From positions 1,056,501-1,120,500 of the forward strand of contig OZ014413.1 in NCBI GenBank assembly GCA_963965975.1: 64,000 nt of DNA, written 5' to 3'. Below, in pieces: positions 8,537 to 41,800 of the stretch. The stretch is from Xestospongia bergquistia (taxonomy: Eukaryota; Porifera; Demospongiae; Haplosclerida; Petrosiidae). A program made the translations under genes and the position numbers. Every line of letters begins with the position of its first letter. Position 1 is the stretch's first letter. The notes under the pieces were generated by a model. That model searched no databases and was not told the origin of the DNA. It was given only the letters and a program-made list of their open reading frames with translations.

Positions 8537-11200
8537 GAATCAAAAATCACAACAACAGTATCTAACAGTGAATAAGTCGCCATCTTGATAATGAATAATT
8601 GATTTTCATTAATTAAAGGCAATAAATACACTTAGTGTCAGGTTATTGATAGGTGACTTTCGCAGGGTTAAAATAGTTAAATATAATTATTATTATTACT
8701 ATTATTATTATTATTGTTATTAAAGCGTGGTCTGCTTTGAGATGAAGCCACATAAGACTACGAACAATAATAATAATAATAATAATAAAGCGTTGAAGTC
8801 TTTTCCAGCAGGCACTGCCCCTGGACCCTCAGGGTTGAGGGCCAGCCACTTGAAGGAGGCTTCCTCTTGCCTTTCCCCCAGAATCAGTAACAACTTTCTG
8901 AAGTCTATATCCAAGTTCATGAATCTTCTGTGTTCAGGTGATGTTCCTGCCATTATCGTTCCACATTTGTGTGGTGCCTATCTTACTGCATTGAAGAAGA
9001 AGTCTGGTGGTTTGTGTCCAATTGCAGTTGGTGAGGTCCTTCGCAGGCTTACCTCTAAGTGTATCCTTCTGTCAGTATCTCTTGAAGCAGTGCGGGTTCT
9101 TTCTCCCTTACAAGTTGGTGTTGGAGTTCCAGTTGGTTGTGAAGCTATTGTTCATTCGGTTAACACTATTTTAGGTGATGATACCATTCCTTTAAGGTGT
9201 AAATGGGTCTTGCAAATTGATTTTTGTAATGCCTTCAATTCAATTGATCGTCATTGTATATTTGAAGAAGTACGAGCTCGTATTCCTTCTATGGCTGCAT
9301 GGACAGAGTGCTGTTATTGCTCTCAGCCCATTCTTCACCTTGGTAAGCGTACCATAAAGAGTTGTTGTGGTGTACAGCAAGGTGACCCTTTGGGTCCCCT
9401 CTGCTTTGCTCTGGCCCTTCACCCCATTGTTGAGAGAATAGCGGAGGAGGTGCCTGGCCTACAGATGAATGCCTGGTATCTAGATGATGGAACTCTTTGT
9501 GGCTCTAGTGAGGATCTGTTAAAGGCCTTACGCATCATTGAAGAAGATGGTCCTGCGAGAGGTCTCCAACTCAACCGAGTTAAATCTTTGTTGTTTGTTC
9601 CTGCAGATGCTGATTTGTCTGAGAACCTTCTCCCCTCTGATATTCCAATTGCTAGAGATTGTTTTGTGCTTTTGGGTGCCCCAGTTGGTTCAACTACATT
9701 CTGTTCCTCACAGGCCTGCAAGAGAGTAGAAAAGATTCAAAGTGCACTAGACCTACTGCCTGAGTTGGATGATTCACAGATGGAATATGTCTTGTTACGC
9801 TCCTGTTTGTCTCTCCCCAAGTTTGTTTTTATCTTGCGCACATGTCCCCCCTCCTTCATTGAGGATGCTATTCAGAATCTTGACAGAGCTTTGTATGATT
9901 CTGTCTCTGAGATTGTTGGTGCTCCGCTGCCAGATTGGGCTTGGAAAAAAGCAACTCTTCCAGTCTCATTTGGCGGACTGGGTTTTCGTTTGGCAACCTC
10001 TCATGCCTCAGCCGCATTCATCAGTTCTGTTTCGAAATCTGCCCATCTTGTTGCTGAGATCTTGGATCGAAGTCCACCCCCACCTCCTCATACCAATGAT
10101 GCACTGCTCCTTCTGACATCAGCTGTTGATCGTTCTGATTGGTCTTTCATTGAGGATATAGATGTTCCAGTTCATCAGCGCCATCTCAGTAGAATAATTG
10201 ACCAAGCCAGATTTGAATCTTTCCTTCAGGAGGCCCCAGATATTCGCTCCAGGGCTCTTGCTTTGTCTTCCTCTATCTGCCATGCAGGTGACTGGTTGAA
10301 TGTTGTGCCTTGTTCTGCTCTTGGCCTACACCTGGTAGATTGGGAGTTTCGTTCCTGCCTAAGGTATTGGCTTGGCTTGCAGATGGTCGAGGAAGGTTCC
10401 TCTTGTCCAGTTTGTGACACAGAGGCTGACAGTATGGGTGATCACCTTGTTACCTGTAGAGGTAATGGGGACATGATTCGTCGGCATGACAGCCTGCGTG
10501 ATGTCATTTTTTCTGCTGCACAGTCTGCTGCCTTGGCCCCTAAGAAAGAAGTCCTCTCCCTTGTTCCTGGTTCCAGTAGTCGCCCTGCTGATGTTTTTCT
10601 CCCTTGTTGGAAACGTGGTCGTTCTGCTGCTCTTGATGTTACTGTAGTCTTGCCTGTCCAGCAACTTACCATCAATAATGCTGCTGTCACTCAAGGTTAT
10701 GCTATTTCTGTGGCAGAGGAGCGTAAACGTCGCTTGCATGATAACGATTGCCATCAAGCTGGAATCTCCTTCATCCCATTGGTGGTTGAGTCATTTAGGG
10801 GCTGGAGCAGGGAAGCTGCTAATGTAATTAAAGAAGAGTGGAAAGCTTCGAGCCCATCGTCTCAGTTTGCCCCTCTCTCACTCAATTTCCCATTTGTTCC
10901 AACGGCTGTCCATCACCTTATGGCGAGGCAATGCCGGTATGTAGGCCTCAAGAGTACCCATTCAGTTACCATCGGAGGATGGTATCATATGAGAACCATT
11001 GAACTTATAAAAACAATAATATTACTTTATGATAATAATAATAATAATAATAATTAATACATTTTATTTAACTATTTTAACCCAGCGAAAGTCACATCTG
11101 AACTAAGTGTTTCATTGCCTTTAATTAATGAAAATCGATTATTCATTATCAAGATGGCGACTTTTGATACTGTTGTGGGACTGAAAAATTCTACTTCCCA
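8537..11200. mobile_element. Composite element: inverted repeats around an RT ORF
   Basis: The left arm (about 8537-8690) is the reverse complement of the right arm (about 11060-11200). Both hold GTCGCCATCTTGATAATGAA on one strand or its complement, and GCGAAAGTCAC-like and CATTAATTAAAGGCAAT segments, with mismatches. Between them are (ATT)n at about 8690-8720, (AAT)n at 8767-8789, the RT ORF, and (AAT)n at about 11034-11055. One reading is a foldback DNA element with an AAT microsatellite core into which a non-LTR retroelement inserted. Another is a retroelement carried by a terminal-inverted-repeat element. Outer target duplications were not resolved. Confidence 0.65.
8727..11057 (+). CDS. 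Reverse transcriptase with C-terminal Zn-knuckle and RLE-type endonuclease
   Basis: An open frame of about 776 codons; the Asn runs at both ends are translated AAT repeats, so the true protein begins and ends inside. RT motifs in order are GTAPGPSGLRASHLKEA, the motif A aspartate in LQIDFCNAFNSID, QQGDPLGPLCFAL, the catalytic YLDD in AWYLDDGTL, GLQLNRVKSLL and FGGLGFRLA. A CPxC…GDHLVTC cluster and a RRHDSLRD segment follow, then SSRPADVFLPCW…AALDVTVVLP, which resembles the restriction-like endonuclease of R2/R4-type non-LTR elements. N-terminal DNA-binding fingers are not seen, so it may be 5'-truncated. It uses more GC-rich codons than neighbouring genes, as expected for a mobile element. 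No frame-breaking lesion is visible. Confidence 0.85.
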   Translation: MVCFEMKPHKTTNNNNNNNNKALKSFPAGTAPGPSGLRASHLKEASSCLSPRISNNFLKSISKFMNLLCSGDVPAIIVPHLCGAYLTALKKKSGGLCPIAVGEVLRRLTSKCILLSVSLEAVRVLSPLQVGVGVPVGCEAIVHSVNTILGDDTIPLRCKWVLQIDFCNAFNSIDRHCIFEEVRARIPSMAAWTECCYCSQPILHLGKRTIKSCCGVQQGDPLGPLCFALALHPIVERIAEEVPGLQMNAWYLDDGTLCGSSEDLLKALRIIEEDGPARGLQLNRVKSLLFVPADADLSENLLPSDIPIARDCFVLLGAPVGSTTFCSSQACKRVEKIQSALDLLPELDDSQMEYVLLRSCLSLPKFVFILRTCPPSFIEDAIQNLDRALYDSVSEIVGAPLPDWAWKKATLPVSFGGLGFRLATSHASAAFISSVSKSAHLVAEILDRSPPPPPHTNDALLLLTSAVDRSDWSFIEDIDVPVHQRHLSRIIDQARFESFLQEAPDIRSRALALSSSICHAGDWLNVVPCSALGLHLVDWEFRSCLRYWLGLQMVEEGSSCPVCDTEADSMGDHLVTCRGNGDMIRRHDSLRDVIFSAAQSAALAPKKEVLSLVPGSSSRPADVFLPCWKRGRSAALDVTVVLPVQQLTINNAAVTQGYAISVAEERKRRLHDNDCHQAGISFIPLVVESFRGWSREAANVIKEEWKASSPSSQFAPLSLNFPFVPTAVHHLMARQCRYVGLKSTHSVTIGGWYHMRTIELIKTIILLYDNNNNNNN

Positions 11201-11339: not shown

Positions 11340-14300
11340 ATGGCAGCATCACAATTAGGTAAGTATGTAGTATTGTATTATAATCAAATTGGTAATCTCG
11401 CGTGACCCAAACGTCCTGCGATGCGAGCGATGACTATTATAAGTGTATACTAGCCCTACGCGATTCAAACGTTAGTGAATCTTAGTAATAGCCACACACT
11501 TTAAAGTTATGGGGTTCACGTTAGTCTCGCGAGTCAGATCCAACCCTTAGTATGGTTGAACGACGGAGCGGGAAGTTTATTGTTCAAATAGTACTGAACA
11601 ATATAACTATAGGAACAGTATGTACACTGCGCTGAAGTCTGGATTACATTATATTTATAATAACTAAAATCTGTTAAATTCTGCTGTTCAAGTCAACTTG
11701 AATTAGACCTGCTGAAGTTGAGTTGAGGTGAATGGCAGTTTTGTGGAATTTAAAGAATCAGAATGTTATCAACCTATACTATAATTTGGGTGTGCACGAT
11801 CTCACATCTTGACAGTTTGCAAGTTTAACTTATAAATATTCTTCCTAGTTTTTTGCTGTTGTTTCCTCTTTATTTTTCTTGTTTTGCTATAAAAGATTTT
11901 CTGCAGCTTCTGAACTTTTTGTTGCATTTAGTTAGAAAATGCTGTGCAAGCATTCATTAATAATATAATGTGGATTGCAAATAATGCCATTCCTTTTTGA
12001 TGAGATTTCTAGTTTACTACTTTCTTGAATAGCTAGTTCTGAATTGTTATATATAATTTGTGGAGCTAGTCTCAAGGTCTCATACATTATGTATATAATT
12101 ATACATATATACATAATGTATACTGTAAACCTGTTTAAAAAATTGTTATAATTTTCTACTGTTTCTAAACTTTTTTTTGCAGCTAGAAAATGCTGTGTGA
12201 GTATTCATTAAAAATATGCAAAATTGTGTGACATCATGTCATAGTGGATTACAAATAATTTCAATGCTTTTTGATGTTTACTACTTTCCTAAATAGCTAT
12301 AGCTCTGAATTGTTATATATAATTTGTGTAGCTATTTTCAACAATATACTAATAGATTATGTATATAATTATACATACACATAATATATACTGTAATCTG
12401 TAAAAAAAATTTTCATCATAAAAGTATATATTTTTATGGTTACCTTTGACCATGAAAATATTTTGATGAAATATTTTGAACAATGAATAATAATAACTAT
12501 GAATAATTAGAAACACAAATAATATTATATTTGAGAGTACATACAATAATAGTAAGTTTTAGACACCTACATCAGACATGGGGCAAGCACTTGAGTGCTT
12601 GTGCTTGAAAGCACTTTAAGTACATTTTTTGGAGTGCTCGGAGGTGCATTCAAGCATTTATTATGTGTAAGCATTTATGTTTGTGCTTGTGCTTAAGCAC
12701 TTTATAGTATTAGTGCTTTAAAGAACTTTATAAGCACTTTTAAGCACAAATGCTGCAAGTACTTTGTGCACTTAGCACATCCATTAATAATCTTCTGCTA
12801 TCATCTTGTGTTTAGGTCAGAGAGATGCCGATTGACAGATGCTACGTTCTATAAATTAATGTTTATAAGATCTAACAATAAGTATTTTTAAAATTGACTT
12901 AGATAAAATTGTTTATTTAAAGGAAATTTTTGGTCAAAAGTGCTTGTGCTTCAATCATTTTTAAGTGCTTGAATTTGTGCTTCAAGCATTTATTTTTTGG
13001 AAGCATAAATGCTTGTACTTGTGCTTAAGCCCTTTTATGAATGCTTTAACTCGTGCTTCAAGCACTTCATTAAATGCTTGCCCCATGTCTGCCTACAGTA
13101 TACAGTTAATATTCAGGCTATATATCTTAATCTTAGAATGAATGTATTCTTTGTTGTTTTACGCTCTTTAGAAAGTCTTAAAAAGTATATGCCATCACTT
13201 AGACAAGCTCTAATCAATCCTGTAAAAGTGTCCCAATTATTGTATAGTGAGAAATGTATTGATGAAACAACACTTGACAAGGTTGAGGCACTAGAATGCT
13301 CATTGTATGATAAAAGGACACTAGTCCTTGAAGCTATGTCAGCAGATCACAAAAAGTTCAAAGTATTTTTGACTGTGTTGTCAAAGTTTGATGAAACAAG
13401 AGGCTTAGCGGAATCAATACTAAGTGATTATGGTAAGTTCAGCACATTTTTACTATTAAATTTTACTATTCATTGTGTCCTAGCACTCACACATCCTGAA
13501 GACATACATTGCCCTTATCAAAAAGAAATCAGACCAAGTCACAGTGTTCAGATGAGTAATGAAGATCATGCCAGTGAAATTTTGCAATGTCATTATGGTT
13601 CTCTTTCTCAATCTCTTTGTGAACCTGTTCGAGTGGCACAAATACTTCAAGGAGAGAAAGTAATATCAGATGCAACATTAATAACTGTAGAGTGCATTGT
13701 ACTAACTGAGTCAGAGCAGAGAACAGTGTTACTAAGTGCTATTCGTGGTGCTGTTCTTGAGAAGTACACCAATTTAGATGTATTAGCTCGTGTTATGCAA
13801 TTCTTTCCAAAAAATTCACAATTAGCAATGTTAATCTTAAAGGACTGTGGTAAGTGTAATAAGTAAATTAAATATCAATTATTTTTTATGTAGAATGTAA
13901 ATTTGTAACTCCTCAAAAACCCTTAAGCTTAAATCCTCAATTTTGGGGAATCAGAGCAAAATTTGAATTGACCTTTAGTCAAGTTGAAGATGTCATGAAA
14001 ACAAAACATCCTACTTTGGAGGAAATGAAATACTATCTTCAAAGACACTACTTTCATCCTAAACAACATCTAGCAAACATAACCACCATTGCTGATTTTC
14101 TAAATGTTGTAAAAGAGAAATGCTCATTAATTGACATTAGATGTCTGGAGGTTGTTATTGACCAATTCTGTCTAAAGAAAGTTGAACAGTGTATCAAAGT
14201 GTACAAAAGTTTCATCAATGATTTTTGTTGCCATGCCACTGTTGAAAGTTGCTTAAATGAAACATTTGAAGTGGTGGCAATGTCCACTCCTCTTAAATGT

Positions 14301-17300
14301 GAGACTCTGAAATTTTTCTTAAACTGGAAACCAAGCAATAATTATAGAATAAGAGATGCCACAGAATTGTTGTTTGTCTCTTTTGGAGAGTTAGCTAAGA
14401 ATGTTAAATTGATCACTTTCAAAGAGGACATCTCCCTCATTATGACTTGCACCTTTCCTTTTAGTCTATGTAGTTCACTTATTAAGAAAGCACATGAAAA
14501 CATAGAATCAGCGAAGAAAAAAGGTGTGATCAACCTAACTATTGCTGATCACGTTGTTTTTGATGAGATTAGTAGAGATGATGTAAGAGTTTAATTTAGA
14601 CAGTTTTGATAGATAATAACTATTTTTTTGATGATGTAGGTAATAAGAAATCTTGAAGAGAAAATACATCAATTAAAAGCCAGACTTACACAGGAGTCAT
14701 TAGAGAAAGAGGGGTTGAAAAGTGTAAGAGATGCATATCATTTTAATTGTGTTATGTGTTAAGAAATAGGAACATAGTAGTCTTGAGAAGAGGTTGAGGA
14801 CTTACAAATGTGATGTGAAGACTCTTGAGGATGCTATTGCTTCTCTGAAGAAAGAATCAGATGAAAAAGATCAGAAAATAATGAAATTGGAATCCTCTCT
14901 TGAAGGTAAGAATTAACCTTAGATATCATCTTGAGAAATGCAGTGCATTCATGGCCATATATGTATGCACACATACAGCATACATACATATAAGTAAGGT
15001 CTGTATTACAATTATATATAATTATACATAGCTGATACATGTCAACTCTATATTCATATTAACTTTGACCTTGTGCATCACTATAAAGATTTCATTTGTT
15101 TTTTTAATTCACAAATTTATATATGTCCTTATCGCACCTAATAATTGAAAATTAAACAAGAAAAGGTTATGGTAGAGACATAAGGTCAAAGTTAACATGA
15201 ACTGATTATAGGTCATGTATATTATTTTATATTATGCATGTAAATAATGATATATATGAATATAAAATTTCTCTCTTTTATTTTCTACCACTATGGACAA
15301 AGAACAACAACAGTATCAATCATTAACTGACACTTTATCAGGTACATGTACATTAATTGAGATATAACTATGTGTACCTAATGTAAACATGTACAGAGAA
15401 GATAAAACTATTGGTCAAAATGAATAAGGCAAAGATATTAGAGATAGAGGAGTTAGCCAGATATAAAGAAGGTAACCTATAGCATTGTTAGTAGTACATA
15501 CCATATATGATTATGTTCTATAGCTACTGATAGAGTATTAATAGACAAACAAGAAGAGATAGAAATACTGCAAAAGACTATAAAATCATTAAGTTTACAA
15601 CTAATGGAGTCTAACTTAAAAATTTTACATATTGAGAAATTGACCAGAGAAAAAAAAGGTGAGCTATAGTACTGTTAGTAATACATACCATATATGGTTA
15701 TGTTCTATAGCTACTGATGAAGCATTAGTAAAGAAACAAGAAGAGATTGAAAAGTTCATCAGAGAGAAAGAAGGTAAGCTATAGTGCTGTTAGTAGTACA
15801 TACCATATATGGTTATGTTCTATAGCTACTGCTGAATTATTAGTAGAGAAACAAGAAGAGATTGAAAAGTTCACCAGAGAGAAAGAAGGTAAGCTATAGT
15901 GCTGTTAGTAGTACATACCATATATGGTTATGTTCTATAGCTACTGATAAAGTATTAGTAGAGAAACAAAAAGAGATTGAGAAGTTGACCAGAGAGAAAG
16001 AAGGTGAACTATAGTACTGTTAGTAGTACATACCATATATGGTTATGTTCTATAGCTACTGATGAAACATTAGTAAAGAAACAAGAAGAGATTGAAAAGT
16101 TCACCAGAGAGAAAGAAGGTAAGCTATAGTGCTGTTAGTAGTACATACCATATATGATTATGTTCTATAGCTACTGATAAAGTATTAGTAGAGAAACAAA
16201 AAGAGATTGAGAAGTTGACCAGAGAAAAAGAAGGTGAACTATAGTACTGTTAGTAGTACATGCCATATATGGTTATGTTCTATAGCTACTGATGAAGCAT
16301 TAGTAAAGAAACAAGAAGAGATTGAAAAGTCCACCAGAGAGAAAGAAGGTAAGCTACAGTGCTGTTAGTAGTACATACCATATATGGTTATGTTCTATAG
16401 CTACTGATAATGTATTAGTAGAGAAACAAGAAGAGATTAAAAAGTTGTCCATAGAGAAAGAAGGTTAGCTATAGCACTGTTAGTAGTACTTATCATATAT
16501 GGTTATGTTCTATAGCTACTGTTGAAGTATTAGTAAAGAAACAAGAAGAGATTGAAAAGTTCACCAGAGAGAAAGAAGGTAAGCTATAGTACTGTTAGTA
16601 GTACATACCATATATGGTTATGTTCTATAGCTACTGATAAAGTATTAGTAGAGAAACAAAAAGAGATTGAGAAGTTGACCAGAGAAAAAGAAGGTGAACT
16701 ATAGTACTGTTAGTAATACATACCATATATGGTTATGTTCTATAGCTACTGATGAAGCATTAGTAAAGAAACAAGAAGAGATTAAAAAGTTCACCAGAGA
16801 GAAAGAAGGTAAGCTATAGTACTGTTAGTAGTACATACCATATATGATTATGTTCTATAGCTACTGTTGAAGTATTAGTAAAGAAACAAGAAGAGATTGA
16901 AAAGTTCACCAGAGAGAAAGAAGGTAATCTATAGTGATGTTAGTAGTACATGCCATATATGGTTATGTTCTATAGCTACTGATAAAGTATTAGTAGAGAA
17001 ACAAGAAGAGATTGATAAGTTGACCAGAGAAAAAGAAGGTAATCTATAGTGATGTTAGTAGTACATGCCATATATGGTTATGTTCTATAGCTACTGATAA
17101 AGTATTAGTAGAGAAACAAGAAGAGATTGAGAAGTTGACCAGAGAAAAAGAAGGTAGTCTATAGTACTGTTAGTAGTACATACCATATATGGTTATGTTC
17201 TATAGCTACAGATAAAGTATTAATAAAGAAACAAGAAGAGATAAAGACACTGGAAAAGGAAATAGTCTCACTGTCTTTACAATTAACAGAGAGCAAAGAA

Positions 17301-20300
17301 AACATCAGAAATTTGGATGTGAAAATGAAAGGTAAAACAAAGAGCAATCATTATATAATGTAATTAATCTGCTATATACACCTACAAACACTATAATGTT
17401 ATGAACATAATATATCGCTTCAATCAAATGTTGTGTTAGTTATAACATTGATTTTCAATAGCTGATATTGAGGAGCTCCAGTCAGAGCTTAAGGAGAAGA
17501 GTAAAATAATTGATAAGCTCAAATTGTCTGTTAAAGAAAAGGAAGGTATGAATTACATATACAGACCTATGTACTATATGTTTATTGGAATATTTTAATA
17601 AATGTTCACTATAACTATGCAAATTGTCATATTTCGGTTGTAATGTCCTTGTGATTGGTGTCAATAGTGGCTTATGGAAATGCCAATAGCATCAACCTTT
17701 ACTATCATTGTCTTAATAAAGATGAATGCCAGGCAGCTGTTTCAGCTGAACTTAAAAAGACAGAAGAGGAAATTGAGAAATTAAAGTCAAATCTAAAAGA
17801 CAAGGAAGGTATAATTCACATAATATTATAGAATTTAATTAAAGCTATTGATAGCTGAGTTGCAGTCAGTAGAAGAAAATCAACAGAAGAAAGAAGTTGA
17901 GATTCAGAACCTAAAATCAAGTCTCAAAGAACAGAAAGGTATTATTTACATTTCTGGATTAAAAAAGAATGTTTCAGATGTTGAGAAATATATAACATTT
18001 ATGTTATTCTTAGCTATACAATACTAATAATATTAATTTATACAATCTATTTCTTTATGATTAGCTAAGCTGAAGATAATGAAAGAACAACAGCTATCAG
18101 AGATCCAGAAGAATAACAATGACATTGAGAAGTTACAATCAGCTCTCAAAGAGAAGGAAGGTATGAAACAATTATTGCAAAAATAATTATTATAGCGATT
18201 CATGGAATAATATCTAATCTATTGTAGAGGAAAAAATAGCTGAGCTAAAAGGGAAGGAATCAGAAATTAAGAGGCTAAAGTTATCTAACAGTAGGTATTA
18301 CACAAATGCCATTGAGTTTCACATTTAGAAAATGCTCAATTATAGCTTATGTATTAATCTTAGCTAACTAAAATTATTATTATGATAATATCATTCTTGA
18401 TAAAGAGGAATTACAATCAACTGTAAGAAAACAAGAATCTGAGCTGAGAGAGAAAGAAGATAAGATTAAAAGTCTAGAAGGTGATATTATAAGTTTAGAA
18501 ATTTCTCTTAAAGAAAAAGAATGTATATATCAAAATGCATGTATATAACATAGCAGAAAACTAATGACTTTATTAGTAATCATTAACATTACTTCGTTGT
18601 TATTATATTAAAGGTGAGCTGAAGTTATATAAAGAGACAGAAACACCACAACTGCGAAAGGAAATTGAAAAGTTGAAGTCATATGTTAGAGCCAAGGAAG
18701 GTATGAGCAGCAATAATGAGTCATGCTATATAAACAACGAAGTAATATGTAGTTGCTTGATTCAAAATTATTTCTTTGTGTTCTTTTTGACAGAGGAATT
18801 GGAATTGATGGACAAAGGTAATATTGTTGATAATCAATAATCATATTATTATTGTTCTGCATGCAAATTCCTTTAAGGTGAGTGTGTTTCAGTCAAAGCA
18901 GTTTCAGTCGATATTCAAGATAATTTTCACTGGGAGGGACATGGGCTGAGGCTTAGTGTTTCTGAATGTTTGACAGAGACATGTAAAATATCTGTCAGAG
19001 CACTTGTTAGTGGAAAATTCAAATTTCCTGAAGGAATGAAGCTAAGCAGTGTTGTTTATGCTCTATTTATTTCGGAGCCACTTCTCAAACCAGTCAAATT
19101 AGAAATCAAACATTATGCACATGTTGTTTTTCAAAAGCATACTAGTTACCTGAGTTTTGTCGTAGCTTCTTTAAAAAGAGATGGTCCTTACTACAACTTT
19201 GACATGAAAAAGGGAGGACAGTTCTATGTGAGCAAGGAATATGGTTCTATCTGTCTATCTGACTCCACTTTAATTGCTGTCGTTACCAGTGATAAACAAC
19301 TAAATGAAGAACTAGCATTAGAGTCATCAGCACATTTATCCCTTGATTGTTATCATGATGAGGAAGTGTATTTACATGCACGTGAATTGGAACACATCAT
19401 ATGCAACATTTTACCTTTCAAGCTAGACACAGACCATGTTTATGTTTGTATCTCACCTGTTTTAGCTCTATCTATACATTCTTACAATAAATATGAGCCT
19501 CTAGTTTTTTTATGGCAGAAGCCTATCCTACCAGAATTTTTTCAAGCATTCATTTTGAACCTTTGTTCAAGTGCACCTAAGTGCTTCGAAGTATCTTTCC
19601 CTCAATTAGGGAAAATAGAAAGCTGCAAAACTGTTGTTTCTTTAAAATGTGTTAATATTGGAGGAGAAGTTCTATTAGTGGAGACCGAATGTTCAATTGA
19701 TGTATATTACTCTGGTCAACCAAAAAACTGCCACCGCATCCATGAAATGATTAAAAAAGAAATGCACGCAGTTATAACTAGCACTGAGAAATTCCAAGAT
19801 ATGATTGATTTTAATGAAGGGCTTCACTGTCATGGTTGTGATACAGAAGGATATGTAAAAAAGCATATTTGTGTTTTGCAAAGTGACAAAAAACATCTGA
19901 GGTGTTATAAGGCAGTCCATCAAATCAATAGTGAACGTCAACTGCCATGGTTTCATTCTGAACCTGAAGGTAAATTATGTTTTGAAGTTGCAACTGCTAA
20001 TTGTCTAAAATTAGTTTTAATACATACCAAGTTTAAATGCCCTTCCAATGTTGTCCTGATAGCAAGTATGAAATGCTATAATACATACATAAAGACTAAA
20101 GTCACTGAAAGTAGCTAAAGTACTTCAGTACATATAGCACAACAAAGCAGTAAAACTCCTATTTTTGTTGCATTGGAAACTTTAGTATCTACTTATATAC
20201 ATGTGCATGACATTAGCTTCTTATGACAACATTGACAATGCAATATATTTTCAATTCATAGGCCCACAATATATTTATTGAAGATTTGTTTTTCTTATTT

Positions 20301-22082: not shown

Positions 22083-23560
22083 ATATAGATTAAAATAGAC
22101 CCTAATAATTATCAGTTATTAATTATTATTGATTTATAATGTCTTATTGATATGTTCATGTTTGTATGTGTTTGTTATTATTGTGTTAGAAAATATTTTA
22201 CTTATATTTTTGTCATTTCCTATAAATAGTATGAAACTATCTAAATATTCATAATGTATATATATATTGACATATTTTTGCTTTGATAGCTTTTTAAAAG
22301 GATAAAGGAACAAGTAAGTAATATACTACATGTGCATTGACATTTGTGTTGATACTGGACAAATTGAGTGTTTCCTAGTAGTGTTCACCATAATAATCAT
22401 GACAATAACTGCCAACAAGTAAACAGTTACCTGATTGTCATGAATTAAAAACCTTTAATAACTCATAAGCAAGATACACAGGTAAACAAGTGCTGTTATG
22501 AGAAAGCATCCAAGGATCATTCTAACAGGTTATATGTCCATTTGTTTTCAATATTGATCCATTCTTAAATTAGCTTCAATGGTATTACAATGAATATACT
22601 TATCACATTCATGAGGTTGCTTAGCAGCCACTAGTCAGGATGTTTATCAATTATGATAACTTCCTGGATATACTTAGTGAATAGTTTAAATTTGAACTAA
22701 CTCTGGTGAGAGAAATATGGCTGTTAATGGAGGAGATATACATTTAACTGTTTTGACATTTACTTGAATGGAAAATCAATTTTTAATGAGTCATATAAAC
22801 ATTAAGACCAGTATAATCCTCAAGTTAGATACTGTCCTCAAAATATTACCAATGTATTAGTTACAATACTGCAGCTTTAAGTATTCTCATAGTCTATGTG
22901 GGTCACTAGTACAATGTAATTTCTCCTAAGATTTGCCTTTGTGTTTATACATACATACATATTTACTGACTGATAGTGTAGTAGAAGATTCATTAAAAGA
23001 CTAGTTGTGTAATCCTTCAATAATATAATATAGAGTATTGACAATAAATGTAAACTAACTCTATATTTAGAACACACAAACCAGAGAGAAAGAGAGATAA
23101 ACACACGAACACAACTGAATATGTAACTGAACTAAAATTACAGAAAAACCACATTTATACATAGTCACTATTCCACGTGGGCTTGAGGTTAAGTGAGGTG
23201 TGGCTGAATGCGTGGGATGTAAATACTACAGGACACTACAATAGCATATTAAATATATCAACTGATGTCCTGACTACTAGAATATCCAGCTGATATACTT
23301 AGTGATATTTGGTTAGTGTATATCATAAGTGGATGTAAAACTAAACAAGGGAACTGGAGTGGATAGAGGACAGAGGGTTTTATAAAACGATGTAGGTGTG
23401 GTCTACAGAGAGATAGTGTTAACTAGTAAATGATGTTAAGTGTTAACATATCAATCATTATATATTACTAGATATCATAGTTACTATTACCACCTATCAC
23501 AGTTACTATTAACATATCTAGTATGGACATTATAAGTGAAAGAGAATCATTAGCAAATGA
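22083..23560. other. Non-coding segment, duplicated downstream of gene K
   Basis: No gene seen. From 22083 to about 22870 it matches 54397-55330 with many small changes; the block GTTGCTTAGCAGCCACTAGT is identical in both. From about 23230 to 23530 it resembles 37370-37690 upstream of gene J, including GAGATAGTGTTAACTAGTAA. The second block is therefore probably 5' flanking sequence shared by F and J. Confidence 0.7.
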
Positions 23561-23632: not shown

Positions 23633-26600
23633 ATGGCAGTAAAAGAAAAGCTAGGTAAGATGCACACTGTTATAATTCTTATTACAATATAATATTTATC
23701 ACATATTAGGTGGTGAAATAAAGTTTCATCTATCTCCTCATTATAAGAACTACTTTGATCAAGTAAAATCAAAATTTGGAGAATTTACTCATACTATTGT
23801 CCCTCTTATTGCTGGAGGTATTTCTTCACTTGAAGAATTCAAAACGTCTCTTGGAAGACGTTTCGAAGACCTAAAACCTCAATTGTCTATAACTGAATCA
23901 TTTGATAATGTTCTGAAGATAACAATAAAAGAGAAATGTACTGTAACTAATATTGACTGCTTGGAGACAATAGTTGATCATTATAACATTGAAAATGCCA
24001 GACCTCATATCACAACTTACAAATCATCAGTTGATGAGATTTGTATGAAGTTTAAAGACAGTGTATTGAAAGTAACAACAGTCTCAACTTCCAAATATGA
24101 GTCAATCATGTTTGACCTGGGATGGCAACAAACAGATGATCTTGCTCACAATGACATTGATGGTTTGTTATGGAAAGCATTTGGAGATATGGCTAACAAA
24201 GTATCATTTAAATATGGATTACCACGTAAGTTAATAAAAATGACAATAGTATGCTTAATAATCATAAGAATTTAACTACATGTGTTATCTATGCTATGTA
24301 CTATACAATTATATATATATTGCATACTACATTGAGCAGTTTTCATTCTGTCTGATACACAATTGAAAGGAAGCTCTAGACAATCCTTATTATTAGAATC
24401 ACTTATGTGCATTCTATTAAGATATTTGAAATGTTGTTTCAAAGGTACAATTGTATAGAATTCCAAAAGGTGATGGTTATAACTACATGCATATAGGCCT
24501 AATTGAGGGTTGTGTCTGGTTTATATAAACTTACCTAGTCAGTGCTAGATTGCACCCTCATGCTTTTATAATAAGCGTGAACCAGATGTTGACCTCCTAG
24601 ATACATCAAAGTGAAAACAGTTATGCAAATTAGAATCCTTGACTCAAGAATTCTAATTTGTATAAGTGTATTCATCTTGTTATATGTCATGTATTTTTAA
24701 GAATTGTTAAAAATGTTCAGCAGATTAGATTGAGATTTATCAATACAAACAGAATGGTATATATAGTTCATTCTAGTAATTATGTTAGAGAAAATAGCTA
24801 GCTATGGAAACTCAATATCTCCTTTATAGTCAGAGATATAATAATTTTGACTCTTCCAATGGTATGTATATAAATATGAACAGCAGATTTGGGAACACTA
24901 AGTAAACTTGTATATCCTTTATATTATATTTAACTCCATGTATACTACTAACTCTGTTTTATAACAGGAGACACTGCAAGTATTCAGTGGAGACATGATA
25001 ATGATAGTGTTCAAGTCATTTCACCAAGTGTTGAACAATGTGAAAATATTGTCAAAAGATTAAAGCAAGAAAAATCACTAAAAGAAAAATTATTATGGCA
25101 TATTGAACTCCGATCATCAAATTCTGAAAGTGCACTGGTAATTATAGATAGTCTTGATCAGTTTGGAGTGAGGGAACTTTCTATAGAAGACACTTCATTG
25201 GACAATATGTGTTTATTAACATTGGCAAAGAAATTTACTGAAATAAAGAAACTATTGTTTAACTCCACCTCTCTCCCTACTGGTAGTATTCAACAAGTTA
25301 TTGAGGCTCTAGCACATACTAACACTTCACTTGAGGCATTATTACTGTGGAATATTCCTATCACAGATGATGATGTAATTTGCTTGTCTGATGTGATAAG
25401 TAATAACAAGACATTGAAAATACTAGACCTCTCCAATTGTGATATCACTGATGAAGGTGTCCAATATATCTGTGAAGGTGTTGCTAAAAATCAAACACTG
25501 ACTATATTAGCCCTCAGCAATAATCTTCAGATCACTTCAGCTAGTACCAGTGCTATAGTTGAACTAATAAAAAAAACTACATCATTACAAAGACTATATC
25601 TCCGGAATACGTCACTGAATGATGATGATATCCAGAAAATTTGTACTACACTAATTGAAAGTACTACAGTACAACAGCTTGTATTATCTGAACAACACGA
25701 GAAAATTTGTGAGACTTTTAATCCTATAATTAAAGAGAAACTCTTTTTTGTAACAGAAAAGCCAATTGGAACAGGTATGTACTATTTACTTACTTAATTC
25801 AATCATGTTACAATTGTAAAAAAATGTACAACATGGTTATATGTATCTATCACATTTGTACAATGTTATTATTAATTATTTCCTCACTTAATATAATAGC
25901 TGCTTCTATTATTACATCATGTGGTTAATAGATACAATATGATAGACTTTTTAGCAAACAGTTATATAGTGCTTTTCTTCAACCATATTTAATTGATACT
26001 AAGAGCACAAAGTGACTAGTTATCAGAAAATCCAAGCTTATCTATTGTAGTTTTCTAGATTTGTTAAATGATAATGATTATATTTAGCTGCTTAAATTGT
26101 CTAGAAGTTCAACCAATCCTTCTATCTTATTTCTGGAATTCATCTATCCTTACACCATATTTTTCAATTTTTAATACTTTTATATTTTAGATTTTGCCAG
26201 TATAGACAATGAACAACCACAAGACCAAACATCAACTAACACTTTATCAGGTACATGTGTATTAATTGAGATATTACTATGTACCTAATGTAAATAGAGA
26301 ATATAAAACTATTAGATAGAATGAATAAGGCAAAGACCTTAGAGATTGAGAAGTTAACCAGACATAAAAAAGGTGAGCTATAGTACTGTTAGCAGTACAT
26401 ACCATATATGGTTATGTTCTATAGCTACTGATAAAGTATTAGTAGAGAAACAAAAAGAGATTGAGAAGTTAACCAAAGAGAAAGAAGGTAAGCTATTATA
26501 CTGTTAGTAGTACATACCATATATGGTTATGTTCTATAGCTACTGATAAAGTATTAGTAGAGAAACAAGAAGAGATTGAGATACTTCAAGAAAAGATAAC

Positions 26601-29600
26601 AAGACTAAATTTACAACAAATAGAGAAAGAAGGTAAGCTATAGTACTGTTAGTAGTACATACCATATATGGTTATGTTCTATAGCTACTGATAAAGTATT
26701 AGTAGAGAAACAAGAAGAGATTGAGAAGTTGACCAGAGAGAAAGAAGGTAAGCTATAGTACTGTTAGTAGTACATACCATATATGGTTATGTTCTATAGC
26801 TACTGATAAAGTATTAGCAGAGAAACAAGAAGAGATAGAGAAGTTGACCAAAGAGAAAGAAGGTAAGTTATAGTACTGTTAGCAGTACATACCGTATATG
26901 GTTATGTTCTATAGCTACTGATAATGTATTAGTAGAGAAACAAGAAGAAATTGAGAAGTTGACCAGAGAGAAAGAAGGTAAGCTATAGTACTGTTAGTAG
27001 TACATACCATATATGGTTATGTTCTATAGCTACTGATAATGTATTAGTAGAGAAACAAGAAGAGATTGAGAAGTTGACCAGAGAAAAAGAAGGTAAGCTA
27101 TAGTACTGTTAGTAGTACATACCATATATGGTTATGTTCTATAGCTACTGATAATGTATTAGTAGAGAAACAAGAAGAGATTGAGAAGTTGACCAGAGAG
27201 AAAGAAGGTAAGCTATAGTACTGTTAGTAGTACATACCATATATGGTTATGTTCTATAGCTACTGATAAAGTATTAGCAGAGAAACAAGAAGAGATAGAG
27301 AAGTTGACCAAAGAGAAAGAAGGTAAGTTATAGTACTGTTAGCAGTACATACCGTATATGGTTATGTTCTATAGCTACTGATAATGTATTAGTAGAGAAA
27401 CAAAAAGAGATTGAGAAGTTGACCAGAGAAAAAGAAGGTAATCTATAGTACTGTTAGTAGTACATACCATATATGGTTATTATGTGCTTTATCAGGTACA
27501 TGTACATTAATTGAGATATAACTATGTATATTAACAGAGAAGTTGAAACAATTGGATATAATGAGTAAGGCAAAGACCTTAGAGATTGAGAAGTTGACCA
27601 GACATAAAGAAGGTAAGCTATAGTACTGTTAGTAGTACATACCATATATGGTTATGTTCTATAGCTACTGATAAAGTATTAGTAGAGAAACAAGAAAAGA
27701 TTGAGAAGTTGACCAGAGAGAAAGAAGGTGAGCTATAGTACTGTTAGTAGTACATACCATATATGGTTATGTTCTATAGCTACTGATAAAGTATTAGCAG
27801 AGAAACAAGAAGAGATAGAGAAGTTGACCAGAGAAAAAGAAGGTAATCTATAGTGATGTTAGCAGTACATACCATATATGGTTATGTTCTATAGCTACTG
27901 ATAATGTATTAGTAGAGAAACAAGAAGAGATTGAGAAGTTGACCAGAGAGAAAGAAGGTAAGCTATAGTACTGTTAGTAGTACATACCATATATGGTTAT
28001 GTTCTATAGCTACTGATAAAGTATTAGCAGAGAAACAAGAAGAGATAGAGAAGTTGACCAAAGAGAAAGAAGGTAAGTTATAGTACTGTTAGTAGTACAT
28101 ACCATATATGGTTATGTTCTATAGCTACTGATAATGTATTAGTAGAGAAACAAGAAGAGATTGAGAAGTTGACCAAAGAGAAAGAAGGTGAGCTATAGTA
28201 CTGTTAGTAGTACATACCATATATGGTTATGTTCTATAGCTACTGATAATGTATTAGTAGAGAAACAAAAAGAGATTGAGAAGTTAACCAAAGAGAAAGA
28301 AGGTAAGCTATTATGCTGTTAGTAGTACATACCATATATGGTTATGTTCTATAGCTGCTGATAAAGAATTAGCAGAGAAACAAGAAGAGATAGAGAAGTT
28401 GACCAAAGCAAAAGAAGGTAAGCTATAGTACTGTTAGTAGTACATACCATATATGATTATGTTCTATAGCTACTGATAATGTATTAGTAGAGAAACAAGA
28501 AGAGATTGAGAAGTTAACCAAAGAGAAAGAAGGTAAGCTATAATACTGTTAGTAGTACATACCATATATGGTTATGTTCTATAGCTACTGATAAAGTATT
28601 AGCAGAGAAACAAGAAGAGATAGAGAAGTTGACCAAAGAGAAAGAAGGTAAGTTATAGTACTATTAGTAGTACATACCATATATGGTTATGTTCTATAGC
28701 TACTGATAAAGTATTAGTAGAGAAACAAGAAGAGATTGAGAAGTTGACCAGAGAAAAAGAAGGTAAGCTATTATGCTGTTAGTAGTACATACCATATATG
28801 GTTATGTTCTATAGCTACTGATAAAGTATTACTAGAGAAACAAGAAGAGATTGAGAAGTTAACCAAAGAGAAAGGTAAGCTATAGTATTGTTAGTAGTAC
28901 ATACCATATATGGTTATGTTCTATAGCAAATACTAAATGTTATAAAACACTAAAGTATTAGTAGAAAAACGAAGTGATAATTGTAAAATTGTCCTCAGAT
29001 TGTTTATAATTATCCTTCTGATTAGTTAAGGCCAATGAAATTTATTAACCCTAACCACGAGTGCTGTGACAATGGATATGACTGATCATGCTTGAACCTT
29101 CTGTTAGTGCAGCTTATATATCTGGCTTTTTTACCAACATTTCATAGCTATAGTATTCCACAGACACTGTAGCTATTTATAAAACCTTTTTAATTTTTAG
29201 ACAATGTTTCACTGTTAAGTCAGTATTTTTGGAAACAATTATACGATGATTTCTTTAATTATAAATTTGTTTTAAATTTTAATTATAATGCTCATTATGT
29301 AGGAAAATGGAGGATCATAACCATTTCAATAAGTATCCTACTCCTGGCAATTGTTATTACTAGTTTTACTAGTACTGATATAAAGGAAGGTAAGATGATA
29401 ATCTAAACCTAAACTTTTTATACATAGTGATGAGTACATGGAAAAATGTGATATAGGACTCTAAGATGTATTTTAGCCTGTCATATGCAGCATACTACAA
29501 GGTTCTAAGAGTATTTTTTGACTATGTGTATACACACACACACACATATATATATATACTTCACAATTTTAATCTATTGTTGTATATGACTTTTGCTAAA

Positions 29601-31421
29601 AGCAACCAATGAGTTTTATTACTTTTATCATGAGCTCTTTGAAATAGGTTTGACTGATCAAAGCTTTGAGTTCTGTAACTCAAGAAAATGTATTTGAGCA
29701 GTTTCATACATTTTCCCAACTCTTTAGTCTTAAACATATCAGTCATCTAGTCCCTTATAACAGCAACAACAGTATTAATCTTAGGACAATTTTTACTATT
29801 ATAATCTGTTTAAATGTTCACTTTATAACAATTGCAACTCCTATAGATACACCTTATTACATTAAAAAGAATGTCATTGGAGGAACAGCAGACATAATAC
29901 AGTGGACAGATGCTTCTTTTAGAATTGATATACTACCTGGAAGTTTTACAAAGGGACATAATGTTGATATATTAGTTTCTACAAGTCATTCTCATCAATT
30001 TGTGATCCCCAAAGGATATAAACTTCTTTCTAGGACATTTAAGATATTAGCCAGTGAAAAGCTTCAACAACCAGTGACAATTACATTAAAACATAATGCA
30101 GTTATTACTACTGAAGAAGAGGCTAAGTCACTTGTTATTCTCCACAGAAATGATGAGGGTGAAACAGAAATATTACATGGCCATACTCAGCCATATTGTA
30201 CCTTTATTACATTTCAATTGACTGAATTAAGTGATGCAGCAGTTGCTGGACCTGATGACATTAATACTAAATATTTTCTCTCTTTTTACCGGCAAAAAAA
30301 TAGTGATGATCATAATAGTAATCCTTACTGCAAGATACTTGCCTTAGTTTCCCGATCAGAGTCAACACATGAGGTTCTTTATACTATAGATATTTCATTA
30401 TAATTAAATGTTATTGTTTTATTTAGAGTCAGAGAGAGAAGTTGTTGAAATATGAATGGATAGCTGATGATAATCCAATTCCTCTCAAGTTAGTAGTGAA
30501 TGGAACTAATGTATGTCTGGAAATAAAACCCTTTGGTTGTTGGAACATTACTGATAAGAACCAATTAAATGTATGTTATAATTTATTGATGCACTCATAA
30601 ATTAAACAATTATATTTCAGATGAAGATGACATCAGAAGATGATTCAAACACTGGTAGTGTAGTAATGCAATATAATAGAAATAACTGTCTTGTTCAACA
30701 ATCAAAGATAACATTTTGTAACACATATGATAAAGAAGAATATGAAACATTTGTTAATCGTAAGTTATTATTTTTAAGTTGATTTAAAATGATAATTCTC
30801 TTCTTTAATAGCTCAGATAATACAAACAAAGTTACAGGATAATATTTTAAAGAAAGTCAAAGGTATACAACTATATATGCTATTTATTGACTATTTTCTG
30901 AAATGTGGTAGACAACTGTAAACTTATAATGATATTTATTGGTATATTTTGTATTGGACTTGTTGTCCTTTATATTTGCTGCAATTTTGGACCTTTGAAA
31001 GGTAAATTGTTTCTCTTTCAAAGTTTTAACAAAACATACATAATAATATTTTAGGTCATTGTACAGAAATGTTTATCATTATCGTAATGATGATAATACT
31101 ATTTCTTTTCTGGTTTTTAGAAGCTATAGGAGGTGAGAATTAATTTTTAAAAATACAAGTGTTAATAAGAACATAAAATTTATTATAGTAGTTGTTTATT
31201 TCTCTATCTTTCTATAATTTACAGTTTTAACAGCAGTTCTTGTATTTGCTTTCATTGTACTCACTTTGGTTCTTTTAAAGAAATTTGAATATTTAGAAGG
31301 TTATTGTAATTATAATATTTAAAATAGATTGTGGTACTGATGCTTTTTCTTTACTACAGTTTTGAATAGTATTGGTCACGTTGGAACTTTCTTGAAAGGC
31401 TTATTACCAGGCAATCGATAA
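23633..31421 (+). CDS. Gene F: domain X, LRR, long coiled coil, TM, ZU5-like, three TM
   Basis: Exons: 23633-23654 (MAVKEKL), 23710-24225 (domain X), 24968-25774 (LRR), 26191-26250, 26298-26372, coiled-coil array 26425-28874, 29303-29389 (TM1), 29847-30373 (ZU5-like), 30427-30570, 30621-30759, 30812-30862, 30912-31001 (TM2), 31055-31132 (TM3), 31225-31299 (TM4) and 31360-31421 (stop TAA). All phases fit, giving about 1364 residues. LRRs are of the ribonuclease-inhibitor/NLR type (LKILDLSNCDITDEG, LQRLYLRNTSLNDD). The ZU5-like module has LQQPVTITLKHNA. Between TM1 and TM2 lie NGT and NIT sequons and several Cys, which suggests that the ZU5-like part is extracytosolic while X, LRR and coiled coil are cytosolic. 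No NACHT or kinase domain is present. Function is unknown; it looks like an LRR-sensor fused to a membrane module. Confidence 0.8.
24626..24660. other. Near-perfect 35-nt hairpin in a gene F intron
   Basis: CAAATTAGAATCCTTGA, one base, then TCAAGAATTCTAATTTG: 17-bp arms with one mismatch. It lies in the 742-nt intron between the domain X and LRR exons. Confidence 0.8.
26373..28926 (+). repeat. Gene F exon-intron array, two blocks of 115-bp units
   Basis: Exons start at 26425, 26540 (93 nt), then 26685 to 27375 every 115 bp. A 75-nt lead exon follows (27538-27612), then 27665 to 28815 every 115 bp (last one 60 nt). That is 19 cassettes of 60-63 nt plus the 93-nt one. The second block restarts with a copy of the lead exon found at 26298-26372, and a leftover CTTTATCAG|GTACATG exon end (27487-27502) now lies inside an intron, marking the duplication junction. 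The array ends at a unit whose downstream exon has decayed (about 28927-28980). Confidence 0.95.
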
Positions 31422-36880: not shown

Positions 36881-37573
36881 TGAAAACACATGCTTGGAAT
36901 CATGGTTCATTTTACATGTTACTGGAACACTAAGCAAGTGTACATTGTCTCTATAGTACCAGGTTTATTATTGGGTATATTAATAACATGTTTGATTATT
37001 TGTACATATATTATTATTCTCAGTAATGTAGCAAGTATGTTTTTGCTCCATAATAATTACAATACTTAACTGTATCAGCAGTGATATTTTTTTATTATTT
37101 CCAATAGATTATTAAACATATGATGAAGATAGAAACTAAAATGGAAATTCAATTAAATTAGTCCATATGTGTAATAATAACATTCAAATTTTTTCATATA
37201 AATCCATAATAAGTCATATTCACTTAGTGAAGTGTTATACATGTACATTACTGTAGTCATCTCTGATATTAAAATAACTCTCCATTTTTTAACAGCATTC
37301 ATCCATTCTTTAATTGTTTCATTCGTGTAATGTTTATTATTAATCTAATTGTTATCTTTTAAACAACATATCTCACTAACTATATCAACTGATATTCTGA
37401 CTACTAATACATTAGTTGATATACTTCATGATATGTGCTTAGTATGTGACATTAGTAGATGTAAACCCTAATAAAGGAGCTGGAGTAGATGGAAGACAGA
37501 GAAGAGTTTTACAGTATATAGAGAGATAGTGTTAACTAGTAAATGATGTTAACATATCAATCATTATATATTA

Positions 37574-37693
37574 CCACATATCATAGTTACTATTAACACA
37601 TATCATAGTTACTATTAACACATATCATAGTTACTATTAACACATATTATAGTTACTATTAACACATATCATAGTTACTATTAACACATATTA
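37574..37693. repeat. 22-bp tandem repeat, about five copies
   Basis: The unit ATATCATAGTTACTATTAAC (20 of 22 bp shown) repeats head to tail, with a T-for-C change in some copies (ATATTATAGTTAC). The first part occurs once or twice upstream of gene F (about 23473-23520), so it expanded here. Confidence 0.85.
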
Positions 37694-37701
37694 TATACTA
37701 G

Positions 37702-38851: not shown

Positions 38852-41800
38852 ATGGCTGCCAACACTGAAACTAATAGCTACAGACGAGCTGTTATTGATG
38901 TTTTCATCCTACACTATGACAGAATTCGCTATGTACTGAAGGGAAACATGGAGGATTTTGTTAGCAGGGTATATGCAGCACACTTAATATCCTCACAAAA
39001 TATGGAGTTTGTTAATATATTTGAACAGTTCAAAACTGGTTTTAAGTCGTGTAGGAGTATTTTAGAGATACAACAACGATATAAATGTTTTATTGATATT
39101 CTTCTTGACATTGGTGGACCAGTTGAAGTTGTTGGGAAAGAAATTGAAGAAAAATTATCAAATTTAACTGGTAAGTTGTGAGAATTACATAAAAGTATTA
39201 ATAAAAACTAAGAGTTGGAATGAACATATTTTTATTTCAAGACCAGTCCAGTAAAGTACTCCAGAAATGCTCTGCAAGACTCTCAAAACTTGTTCTTCCT
39301 ATGGAGGTGACACAGATATTATATACAGAGGGAGTTATCTCTAAGGAGACATTTGATGAGATACAGAGCTCAGGAGGATTGCTAACTGATATTCCATTGA
39401 GAGCACTGTCTGATAGAGTATCTAAAGATCCAAACATGTTAAGAGTGTTTGGTGCTGTCTTATTACAATCTAAAGACACAGTACATGTAGGAAATGATAT
39501 ACTCAGAGAGTATGGTAAGTGTTTATAGCATGTCTGTTTATTGTAATCTCTTGCATAATAGAGGTCCATCTTCAAACTACTTATCACGAATGTTTTGATC
39601 ACATAAGAGCAAAATTTGGAGTACTAATTATTACTATAACACCTCTTATTGAATCTGCTGTCATGCCTAGATTAAAAGAGTTTAAAACATTTCTTCGAAC
39701 ATGCTTTCCAGAGTTAAGACCTCAATTGTCTATAGCTGAATCCTTTGATGATGTTATGGAGATAGTGCAAGAAAAGTGTACCATGATCAATGTTGCCTGC
39801 TTGAAGATTATTGTTGATCATTATAAAATTGAAGAAGCCATTGCTCACATAACAACCTACAAAAATGAAGTCAAAACATTCTGTGAGGAGGTCAAACTAA
39901 GTGTGTGTAAAAATGAAAACATGACAAATCCATCCCTAATTCTTAAATGTGAGACTATTGAGTTTATTCTAGAGTGGAAAGGAGAAGAATACTCACTTAA
40001 TGACATCGAAGTCTTGTTAAAAAAGGCTTTTGAAGATATGGCTAAAAGGGTCCAAGTTAGATACTTCAAAGATACTGTAGTGTCTAGTAGTATAGACAGA
40101 GATGACCTGGTATCAACTGAAGAGTCTTTGTCAGGTAAATATAACACGATTATATATTAACTGTGTACAGACAAGCTAAAACTATTAGATGGAATGAATA
40201 AGGCAAAGATATTCCAGATAACACAGTTGACCAGAGAGAGAGAAGGTGAGCCATATATGGTTATGTTCTATAGTTACTGATAAAGTATTAGTAGAAAAAC
40301 AAGAAGAGATTGAGAAATTGACCAGAGAGAAAGAAGGTAAACTATAGTACTGTTAGTAGTACATACCATATATGGTTATGTTCTATAGCTACTGATAAAG
40401 TATTAGTAGAGAAAGAAGAAGAGATTGAAAAGTTGGCCAGAGAGAAAGAAGGTGAGCTACAATACTGTTAGTAGTACATACCATATATGGTTATGTTCTG
40501 TAGCTACTGATAAAGTATTAGTAGAGAAACAAGAAGAGATTGAGAAGTTGACCAGAGAGAAAGAACGTAAGCTATAGTACTGTTAGTAGTACATACCATA
40601 TATGGTTATGTTCTATAGCTACTGATAAATTATTATTAGAGAAAGAAGAAGAGATTGAAAAGTTGGCCAGAGAGAAAGAAGGTGAGCTACAATACTGTTA
40701 GTAGTACATACCATATATGGTTATGTTCTATAGCTACTGATAAAATATTAGCAGAGAAACAAGATGAGATTGAGAAGTTAACCAGAGAGAAAGAAGGTTA
40801 GCTATAATACTGTTAGTTGTACATGTAATATATGGTTATATTCTATAGAGAAACAAGAAGAGATTGAGAGGTTGACCAGAGAGAAAGAAGGTAAGCTATA
40901 GTACTGTTAGTAGGATTGGGGTCAATTACATGAGAACGATTATGATTATGATTACAGAGCTGGATTACTGGATTACTTGCACAATCTAAAAATGACAGTA
41001 TATATAGACTTTTACATTCAGCTACAAATATGCAAAGTGTAATCTGTGTAATCACATGATTTTTCACGCATCATTTCAGAAGTATACACCAGCAGATCCT
41101 AATACAGGCATGTACTTGCTCCATGTACTACTTACAAAGGATACTATAATTGATGTAATCACTTGTAATTACATCAATTACTTTGTCTGACAATTACTAA
41201 TTACACTGTTTCTGGAAAGTTAATTACAATTACGATTGCGATTACAGCAAAAAATGTAATTGATTGTAATTGATTACAATTACAATTGTAATCGGCCCCA
41301 ACCCTGACTGTTAGTAGTACATACTATATACGATTGTTCTTTAAAGCCAAACAAGAAGAGATTTCAAGACTAGATGAGAAAATATCAGAACTAACAATGA
41401 AATTAGAATTGGAATCTAAAAAAAGTAAGGCAAAGACATTAGAAATTGAAAAGTTGACCAGAGAGAAGAAAGGTAAGCTATTAAACTGTTAGTAGTACAT
41501 ATCATATATGGTTATGTTCTATAGCTACTGATAAAGTATTAGTAGAGAAACAAGAAGAGATTGAGAAGTTGACCAGAGAGAAAGAAGGTAAGCTATAGTA
41601 TTGTTAGTAGTACATACCATATATGGTTATGTTCTATAGCTACTGATAAAGTATTAGTAAAGAAACAAGAAGAAATTGAGATACTACAAGAGAAAATAAT
41701 GTCACTAATTTTACAACTAAGGATGAGGGATACAAAGATCAGTCAATTGATGGAGAACATGAAGAGTAATCAATTATCACAATTATATTATATTACTATA

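Follow-up and report, generated by a model that had tools for sequence, protein, structure and literature searches.

How does a short exon come to be copied head to tail together with its intron, giving as many as about twenty copies in a gene, and how do these copies stay near-identical across genes whose other parts differ strongly? This question is raised by three genes, D, F and J, in the 64,000-nucleotide stretch of sponge DNA analysed here (the window, C3:1056501-1120500 of a 146-Mb genome in 21 contigs). Judging from the sequence, we consider it likely that a 115-bp unit, an exon with its 52-nt intron, is repeated in tandem in their arrays, that this unit had a hybrid origin and has evolved in concert, and that the number of units sets the length of a protein rod in the germline.

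The array of gene D consists of 13 exons of 63 nt (here called cassettes) at a pitch of exactly 115 bp, from 15711 to 17153, and the introns between them are 52 nt long. All are bounded by AG and GT, have phase 1-1 and are open; each carries CTATAG on its 5' side and GT on its 3' side. TRF gives the array a score of 2622, with 14.0 copies of 115 bp, 91% matches and 0% indels. Coordinates and TRF result together bear out the preliminary description of the D array as thirteen 63-nt exons at a 115-bp pitch with phase 1 at both ends. The parts of gene D are as follows.

13009..14594, + strand: upstream part of D, with two helical repeats, death-fold-like by eye, and the X domain exon (from open reading frames and the X match)
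15397..15471, + strand: exon A of D, 75 nt, phase 1-1, AG/GT, which opens the D array (from the 41-locus exon A consensus)
15524..15658, + strand: 135-nt exon of D, 45 residues, phase 1-1; 5' part B-like and 3' end A-like by eye
15711..17153, + strand: D array, 13 cassettes of 63 nt with 52-nt introns
17206..17331, + strand: exon B, 126 nt, 42 residues, which closes the D array (from the B consensus)
18877..20118, + strand: last long exon of D, 3' of the helical region; it terminates with a stop codon

In part of the D array two cassette types alternate. Type 1 has E then K, a phenylalanine and donors that are mostly GTAAG; type 2 has K then E, a leucine and weaker donors. The pair resembles a swapped salt bridge tied to donor strength.

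The arrays of F and J, described earlier as related to that of D, do contain the same unit, but with cassettes of 93, 60 and 42 nt besides those of 63 nt. In F, 18 cassettes measure 63 nt, a further one 93 nt (31 residues) and another 60 nt (20 residues), and a second exon A lies in mid-array. J includes five plus one cassettes of 63 nt and one of 42 nt, the two blocks being separated by a second exon A end.

26298..26372, + strand: exon A, 75 nt, which opens the F array
26425..27437, + strand: F block 1, nine cassettes, of which eight have 63 nt and the one at 26540-26632 has 93 nt
27538..27612, + strand: second exon A within the F array, 75 nt, AG/GT (from the exon A pattern at C3:1084060)
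27665..28874, + strand: F block 2, ten 63-nt cassettes and a last 60-nt cassette (28815-28874)
39519..40160, + strand: X-domain exon of J, 213 amino acids, directly 5' of the J array
40274..40890, + strand: J block 1, six cassettes, of which five have 63 nt and the one at 40849-40890 has 42 nt
41525..41587, + strand: J block 2, one 63-nt cassette, 3' of the exon A end at 41472
41640..41765, + strand: exon B, 126 nt, which closes the J array

Not every cassette therefore codes for three heptads, as had been claimed, and the 93- and 60-nt cassettes of F likewise contradict the statement that skipping would always proceed in steps of whole heptads. To judge from their appearance, the exons of 93, 135 and 42 nt are A and B parts joined in other ways or shortened by internal deletion. 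Diverged cassette-like exons are also present outside the three arrays, at 32477-32555 and 49211-49413 of the window; the one at 49231 has AC in place of the acceptor AG.

The unit is not confined to this window. A 35-base pattern across the acceptor, allowing at most three mismatches, has 243 matches in the genome (156 on the + and 87 on the - strand), a 37-base intron pattern has 236, a 36-base exon pattern 144 and the exon A pattern 67; the same four patterns, written backwards, have 0 genome matches each. Matches to the D array itself were found in at least 59 places (40 of 164 first-look candidates were scored), mostly on contig C3 and also on C6, C12 and C14. Such a distribution might be that of an introner, an intron that spreads by itself. 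At 12 places fetched through an intron or cassette match, the intron was re-found at 11 (L049 gave no match), with an exon-A-like stretch upstream in 11/11 and a B-like start downstream in 10/11 (the exception is L047). The intron thus travels with its exons and not alone, and we reject the introner reading. One place fetched by exon A, L078, has the intron without B after it.

A profile search of the window and the array loci gave 239 hits, 167 of which span the whole exon; the 72 partial ones were set aside. Cassette length is divisible by three in all 167 fully aligned copies (63 nt in 140; 42, 54, 60, 66, 69, 78 or 93 nt in the other 27). Introns between adjacent cassettes measure 52 nt in 104 of 118 cases, and among the remaining 14 the difference is divisible by three in two and not divisible in 12. 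AG and GT are kept in 164 of the 167 cassettes, the failures being L014 4019, L039 510 and window 49231, and there is no stop in any. The claim that the cassettes can be skipped in frame is thus upheld. Among the 103 distinct 63-mers, 102 different single-base changes occur (79 of them are replacements, 23 are silent and 0 are nonsense, where neutrality at kappa 2 predicts about 72, 24 and 6.6, range 5-8), although these are not independent events since the copies are related. The mix of replacement and silent variants is close to neutral, which indicates weak selection on the peptide; pN/pS by pairs is 0.56 within arrays and 0.53 between them. Frame and splicing are thus maintained in the cassettes while the constraint on the peptide is loose.

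These counts also bear on two simpler explanations of the arrays. They might be a non-coding minisatellite, or remnants of dead genes that happen to resemble exons, and exons and introns do vary about equally within an array (0.077 and 0.063 in D, 0.053 and 0.061 in F). However, exon lengths stay in frame throughout while intron lengths are free, stops are lacking, and the phase of the cassettes fits that of the adjoining exons. The in-frame lengths and the lack of stops lead us to reject this reading, which we regard as exceedingly improbable. An assembly artefact, in which the repeat was collapsed or expanded, would affect the cassette counts; the units are about 91% alike, so that error is possible, and the counts are judged from the assembly rather than from raw reads. 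Against this, the D units differ from each other and are ordered, they are embedded in a contig of 11.5 Mb, and the array is matched at the many places given above. We consider such an artefact very improbable.

Where the cassette came from can be read from loci that have no array, in which exon A, a 52-nt intron and exon B are consecutive. For comparison with the cassette, the consensus of exon A was built from 41 sequences and that of exon B from 35, drawn from 42 loci. Bases 1-42 of the cassette consensus equal the exon B consensus at 42 of 42 positions and its last 21 bases match the end of exon A at 18 of 21, whereas the opposite assignment (A on the 5' side, B on the 3' side) gives only 20/42 and 7/21. 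Judged by these matches, the cassette is a hybrid exon, with a 5' part from B and a 3' part from A. An 11-bp repeat, AGAGAT(T/A)GAGA, is present in both exon A and exon B and the switch from B to A falls inside it. Both exons were found in 35 loci, and in 25 of these the copies of the repeat have a spacing of 115 bp; today the two copies differ by at most one base in just 14 of the 35. The letter match suggests that the unit arose by tandem duplication between the 11-bp copies in A and B. The product would be exon A and an intron, then n copies of the B5'/A3' hybrid exon with its intron, and finally exon B. Since both parent exons have phase 1-1, the hybrid would be in frame by construction, and a duplication of this kind would account for pitch, phase and frame together. 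The locus would then provide a letter-level case of the birth of an intron-bearing tandem repeat through an 11-bp repeat in neighbouring exons of the same phase.

We then compared the units with the genes that carry them, using 14 genes, defined as array loci with a usable X exon; loci in which X is absent or cut off (for example, L017) were excluded. Over the 91 gene pairs, the X exon has a pS of 0.565 and a pN of 0.348, and the cassettes a pS of 0.110 and a pN of 0.061, with an intron core divergence of 0.052. Between arrays, the corresponding values are 0.058 for the intron, 0.061 for pN and 0.115 for pS. The repeat thus stays uniform across the gene family while the remaining gene parts diverge. 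In two recent pairs X and cassettes are equally diverged (pS 0.14 and 0.13 in J and L021; 0.12 and 0.11 in D and L027), which indicates that homogenisation caps divergence and does not erase it immediately. Distances are 0.066 within an array, 0.081 between arrays on the same contig and 0.129 between contigs. As the last value is the highest, exchange seems to occur mainly within C3, and to be slower or older between contigs. In the paralogues L020 and L024, whose long flanking matches are 94-97% identical, the first block has five and four cassettes, respectively, which fits a turnover of units.

The same block is conserved where no array exists. A set of A-intron-B loci was drawn, non-randomly, from 30 of the 67 exon A places, and 23 of the 30 were used; those dropped, by eye, were four with intron insertions, one without an intron and two that had decayed. 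The intron shows an identity of 0.90; along exon B the value falls from 0.88 (B 1-42) to 0.65 (B 43-126), and in the following intron it is 0.48 over the initial 60 bases and 0.27 further on. On the A side, where values are inflated because the exon A pattern was used for selection, identity is 0.86 in the A tail and 0.72-0.77 upstream of it, so that the boundary is less sharp there. By this comparison the conserved block is the cassette unit, even where it is single-copy, and it ends where the cassette ends. Four of the loci (L056, L057, L066 and L072) have an insertion in the 52-nt intron; in L057, L066 and L072 it starts at a common point, after GTACATACC, and the three insertions resemble one element.

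Introns are homogenised at least as strongly as exons, across both units and genes, which is what concerted evolution of a tandem exon-intron repeat entails. We read this as concerted evolution of the units, to which selection on the intron could contribute, as the intron core varies least. Unit number would shift by unequal exchange, and the units would be homogenised across genes, probably by gene conversion, faster than most of the family diverges; the divergence values point to both steps.

Homogenisation and constraint on the intron can be separated only partly. An alternative is that the intron has a function of its own, such as that of a splicing signal replacing the pyrimidine tract, and is kept alike by selection, with homogenisation playing a minor role. 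This would agree with the low divergence of the intron core in the A-intron-B loci (0.078 as against 0.124 for B 1-42) and with the lower variability of the 3' part of the intron compared with the 5' part (0.044 versus 0.096). It leaves aside, however, that the pS of the cassettes (0.11) is likewise far under that of the X exon (0.57), and it does not predict that the conserved block should stop inside exon B, at the recombination junction. The insertions in 4 of 30 A-intron-B loci also argue against it, though those genes may be dead. We consider this explanation unlikely. Another possibility, close to the view in the preliminary description, is that the cassettes are regulated alternative exons, so that a single gene would give rods of many lengths through the skipping of subsets. 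The cassettes are symmetric; as regards a mutually exclusive cluster of the Dscam type, their length, divisible by three, allows no frame-based exclusion. Donors other than GTRAG are present in 7 of 13 D cassettes and 14 of 151 elsewhere (Fisher p = 0.0002, with the proviso that units within one array are not independent), but the donor is GTRAG in 143 of the 164 cassettes overall. Folding of 751 bases of the D array gives z = -7.3 (0 of 20 shuffles as good) because the repeated, partly palindromic introns can pair with each other, which could loop out cassettes; repeats that bear palindromes, however, fold well without any function, and z is only 0.39 for a lone intron, -0.41 for 73 nt around the intron and -1.79 for the whole unit. 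A conserved intron hairpin is not supported, as the single intron folds no better than its shuffles and almost no compensatory change is seen in the intron pairs among 79 distinct introns. Taken together, regulated skipping is rather unlikely. With donors that are mostly not GTRAG, D is the place to look for it, and its weak donors, those of the cassettes that begin at 15941, 16171, 16401, 16631, 16861, 16976 and 17091, make this gene a direct test bed for the combinatorial reading of an array. A broader picture, which we regard as quite unlikely, combines these elements: the 115-bp unit, a hybrid exon with a partly self-complementary intron, might be semi-autonomous, copying itself by conversion within a large, immune-like family of genes, with a genealogy uncoupled from that of its host genes, while its introns pair and loop out cassettes to give graded rods.

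Under the reading that we prefer, a repeat of hybrid origin under concerted evolution, the effect of the array would be on the length of the encoded protein. The cassette peptide, ATDKVLVEKQEEIEKLTREKE, has 12 charged residues out of 21. The coiled coil proposed in the preliminary description is plausible, but the hydrophobic period of 3.5 residues is not significant in the cassette (5,526 of 20,000 permutations are as good) or in the flanking exons tested: exon B (1,606 and 1,937), exon A (5,431), the 135-nt exon of D (4,112), the D exon at 17462 (1,604) and the 93-nt exon of F (15,733), all short peptides that give the test low power. We therefore speak of a charged helical rod, which may be a coiled coil whose core positions are weak. 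Each unit would add 21 mostly helical, charged residues to this rod, which would follow the helical (death-fold-like) N-terminal domains and X and precede a C-terminal part that is ZU5-like in a paralogue. Its length would be set mainly in the germline, by the size of the array; skipping in frame is possible but not needed.

The domains around the arrays provide some hints as to the kind of gene involved. No Pfam match was obtained for the upstream part of D (13009..14594), and we infer for this gene the order of two death-fold-like helical repeats, X, a long helical region and a long last exon. The X domain has at least 156 matches in the genome. Its Pfam hits concern 10 families, each in one of 15 members and all below the cut-off; in comparisons with PDB profiles it resembles mostly helical proteins, with a best E of 0.01 (NDC80). 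Downstream of the J array, ZU5 (PF00791) is found at 43203-43901 of the window with 23.9 bits (cut-off 21). It scores 13.5 bits, below this cut-off, at 29654-30403 and gives no match at the last exon of D (18877-20118). CARD (PF00619) at 39205-39525 remains below its cut-off (E = 0.01; 16.3 bits compared with 23.9). ZU5 and CARD matches number 33 and 13, respectively, and LRR_6 passes the Pfam cut-off at 24952-25797 (+). The ZU5, LRR and death-fold-like parts hint at a family of innate-immune genes. If this is so, the arrays would offer a germline means of adjusting how long a signalling rod is. Two long exons at 58104-58688 and 60239-60832 (+) look, by eye, like that at 24952-25797, with no Pfam match; these LRR-like exons sit among the array genes.

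Tandem arrangements of short exons are known from several proteins. Collagen (54-bp exons) and titin (PEVK exons) have many short symmetric exons, each made of whole repeat units; to our knowledge, their introns are not copies of each other. Nor, as far as we know, are the repeats of silk proteins helical rods of the cassette kind. It had been noted that no named system with the design seen here was known, but tandem repeats of exon plus intron under concerted evolution have been described (PMC2576457, PMC9779670). In the SmPoMuc genes of S. mansoni, symmetric 27-bp exons and their introns form tandem repeats with as many as 20 copies in a gene (PMC2576457). The repeats are more than 93% identical across genes at several loci, gene conversion being the favoured explanation; the unit, most of which is intron, measures about 1 kb and codes for a glycosylated mucin repeat, and variation in transcripts has been shown (PMC2576457). 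The sponge arrays share with this system the tandem of short symmetric exon and intron, near-identical across a multigene family. They differ from it, as it is portrayed in that account, in a unit of 115 bp, a hybrid exon and a product that is probably helical.

The same source likens SmPoMuc to Coccidioides SOWgp and to modular silk genes (PMC2576457). SOWgp resembles the sponge arrays in its repeated exons, near-identical introns and concerted evolution, and differs in being a single-copy fungal gene for a wall glycoprotein (both via PMC2576457). In Argiope MaSp2, exon-intron units have highly homogenised introns, a feature tied to the homogenised coding repeats; intergenic conversion is reported, and the introns diverge rapidly between genes (PMC9779670). 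The homogenised introns of repeating units are thus common to both, whereas the sponge intron is shared by genes across the family. Tandem exon duplications, including those of obscurin, also place homologous exons in tandem; they are mostly linked to mutually exclusive choice, and the portion of the source covered makes no mention of hybrid units at a fixed pitch (PMC9013439). Among the top-listed titles and abstract openings of a literature search, none described this design. Of the features of the SmPoMuc and silk type, the sponge arrays show a near-identical tandem unit of exon plus intron, a symmetric exon that lets unit number change in frame, and introns homogenised across units and genes; in the one genome analysed, repeat number differs between the paralogues L020 and L024. 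What differs from these known relatives is the hybrid exon, the very compact unit, the one intron used family-wide and the probably helical product.

Searches of the window with Rfam gave 0 matches. Two further elements were seen in it. An open frame of 777 amino acids at 8724-11057 (+) is, by eye, like a non-LTR reverse transcriptase, and the G+C content of this stretch (0.38-0.41) is above that of the rest of the window. A 22-bp minisatellite forms two arrays, at 37569-37695 and 23463-23518, with the near-identical units TATTAACACATATCATAGTTAC and TATTACCACATATCACAGTTAC.
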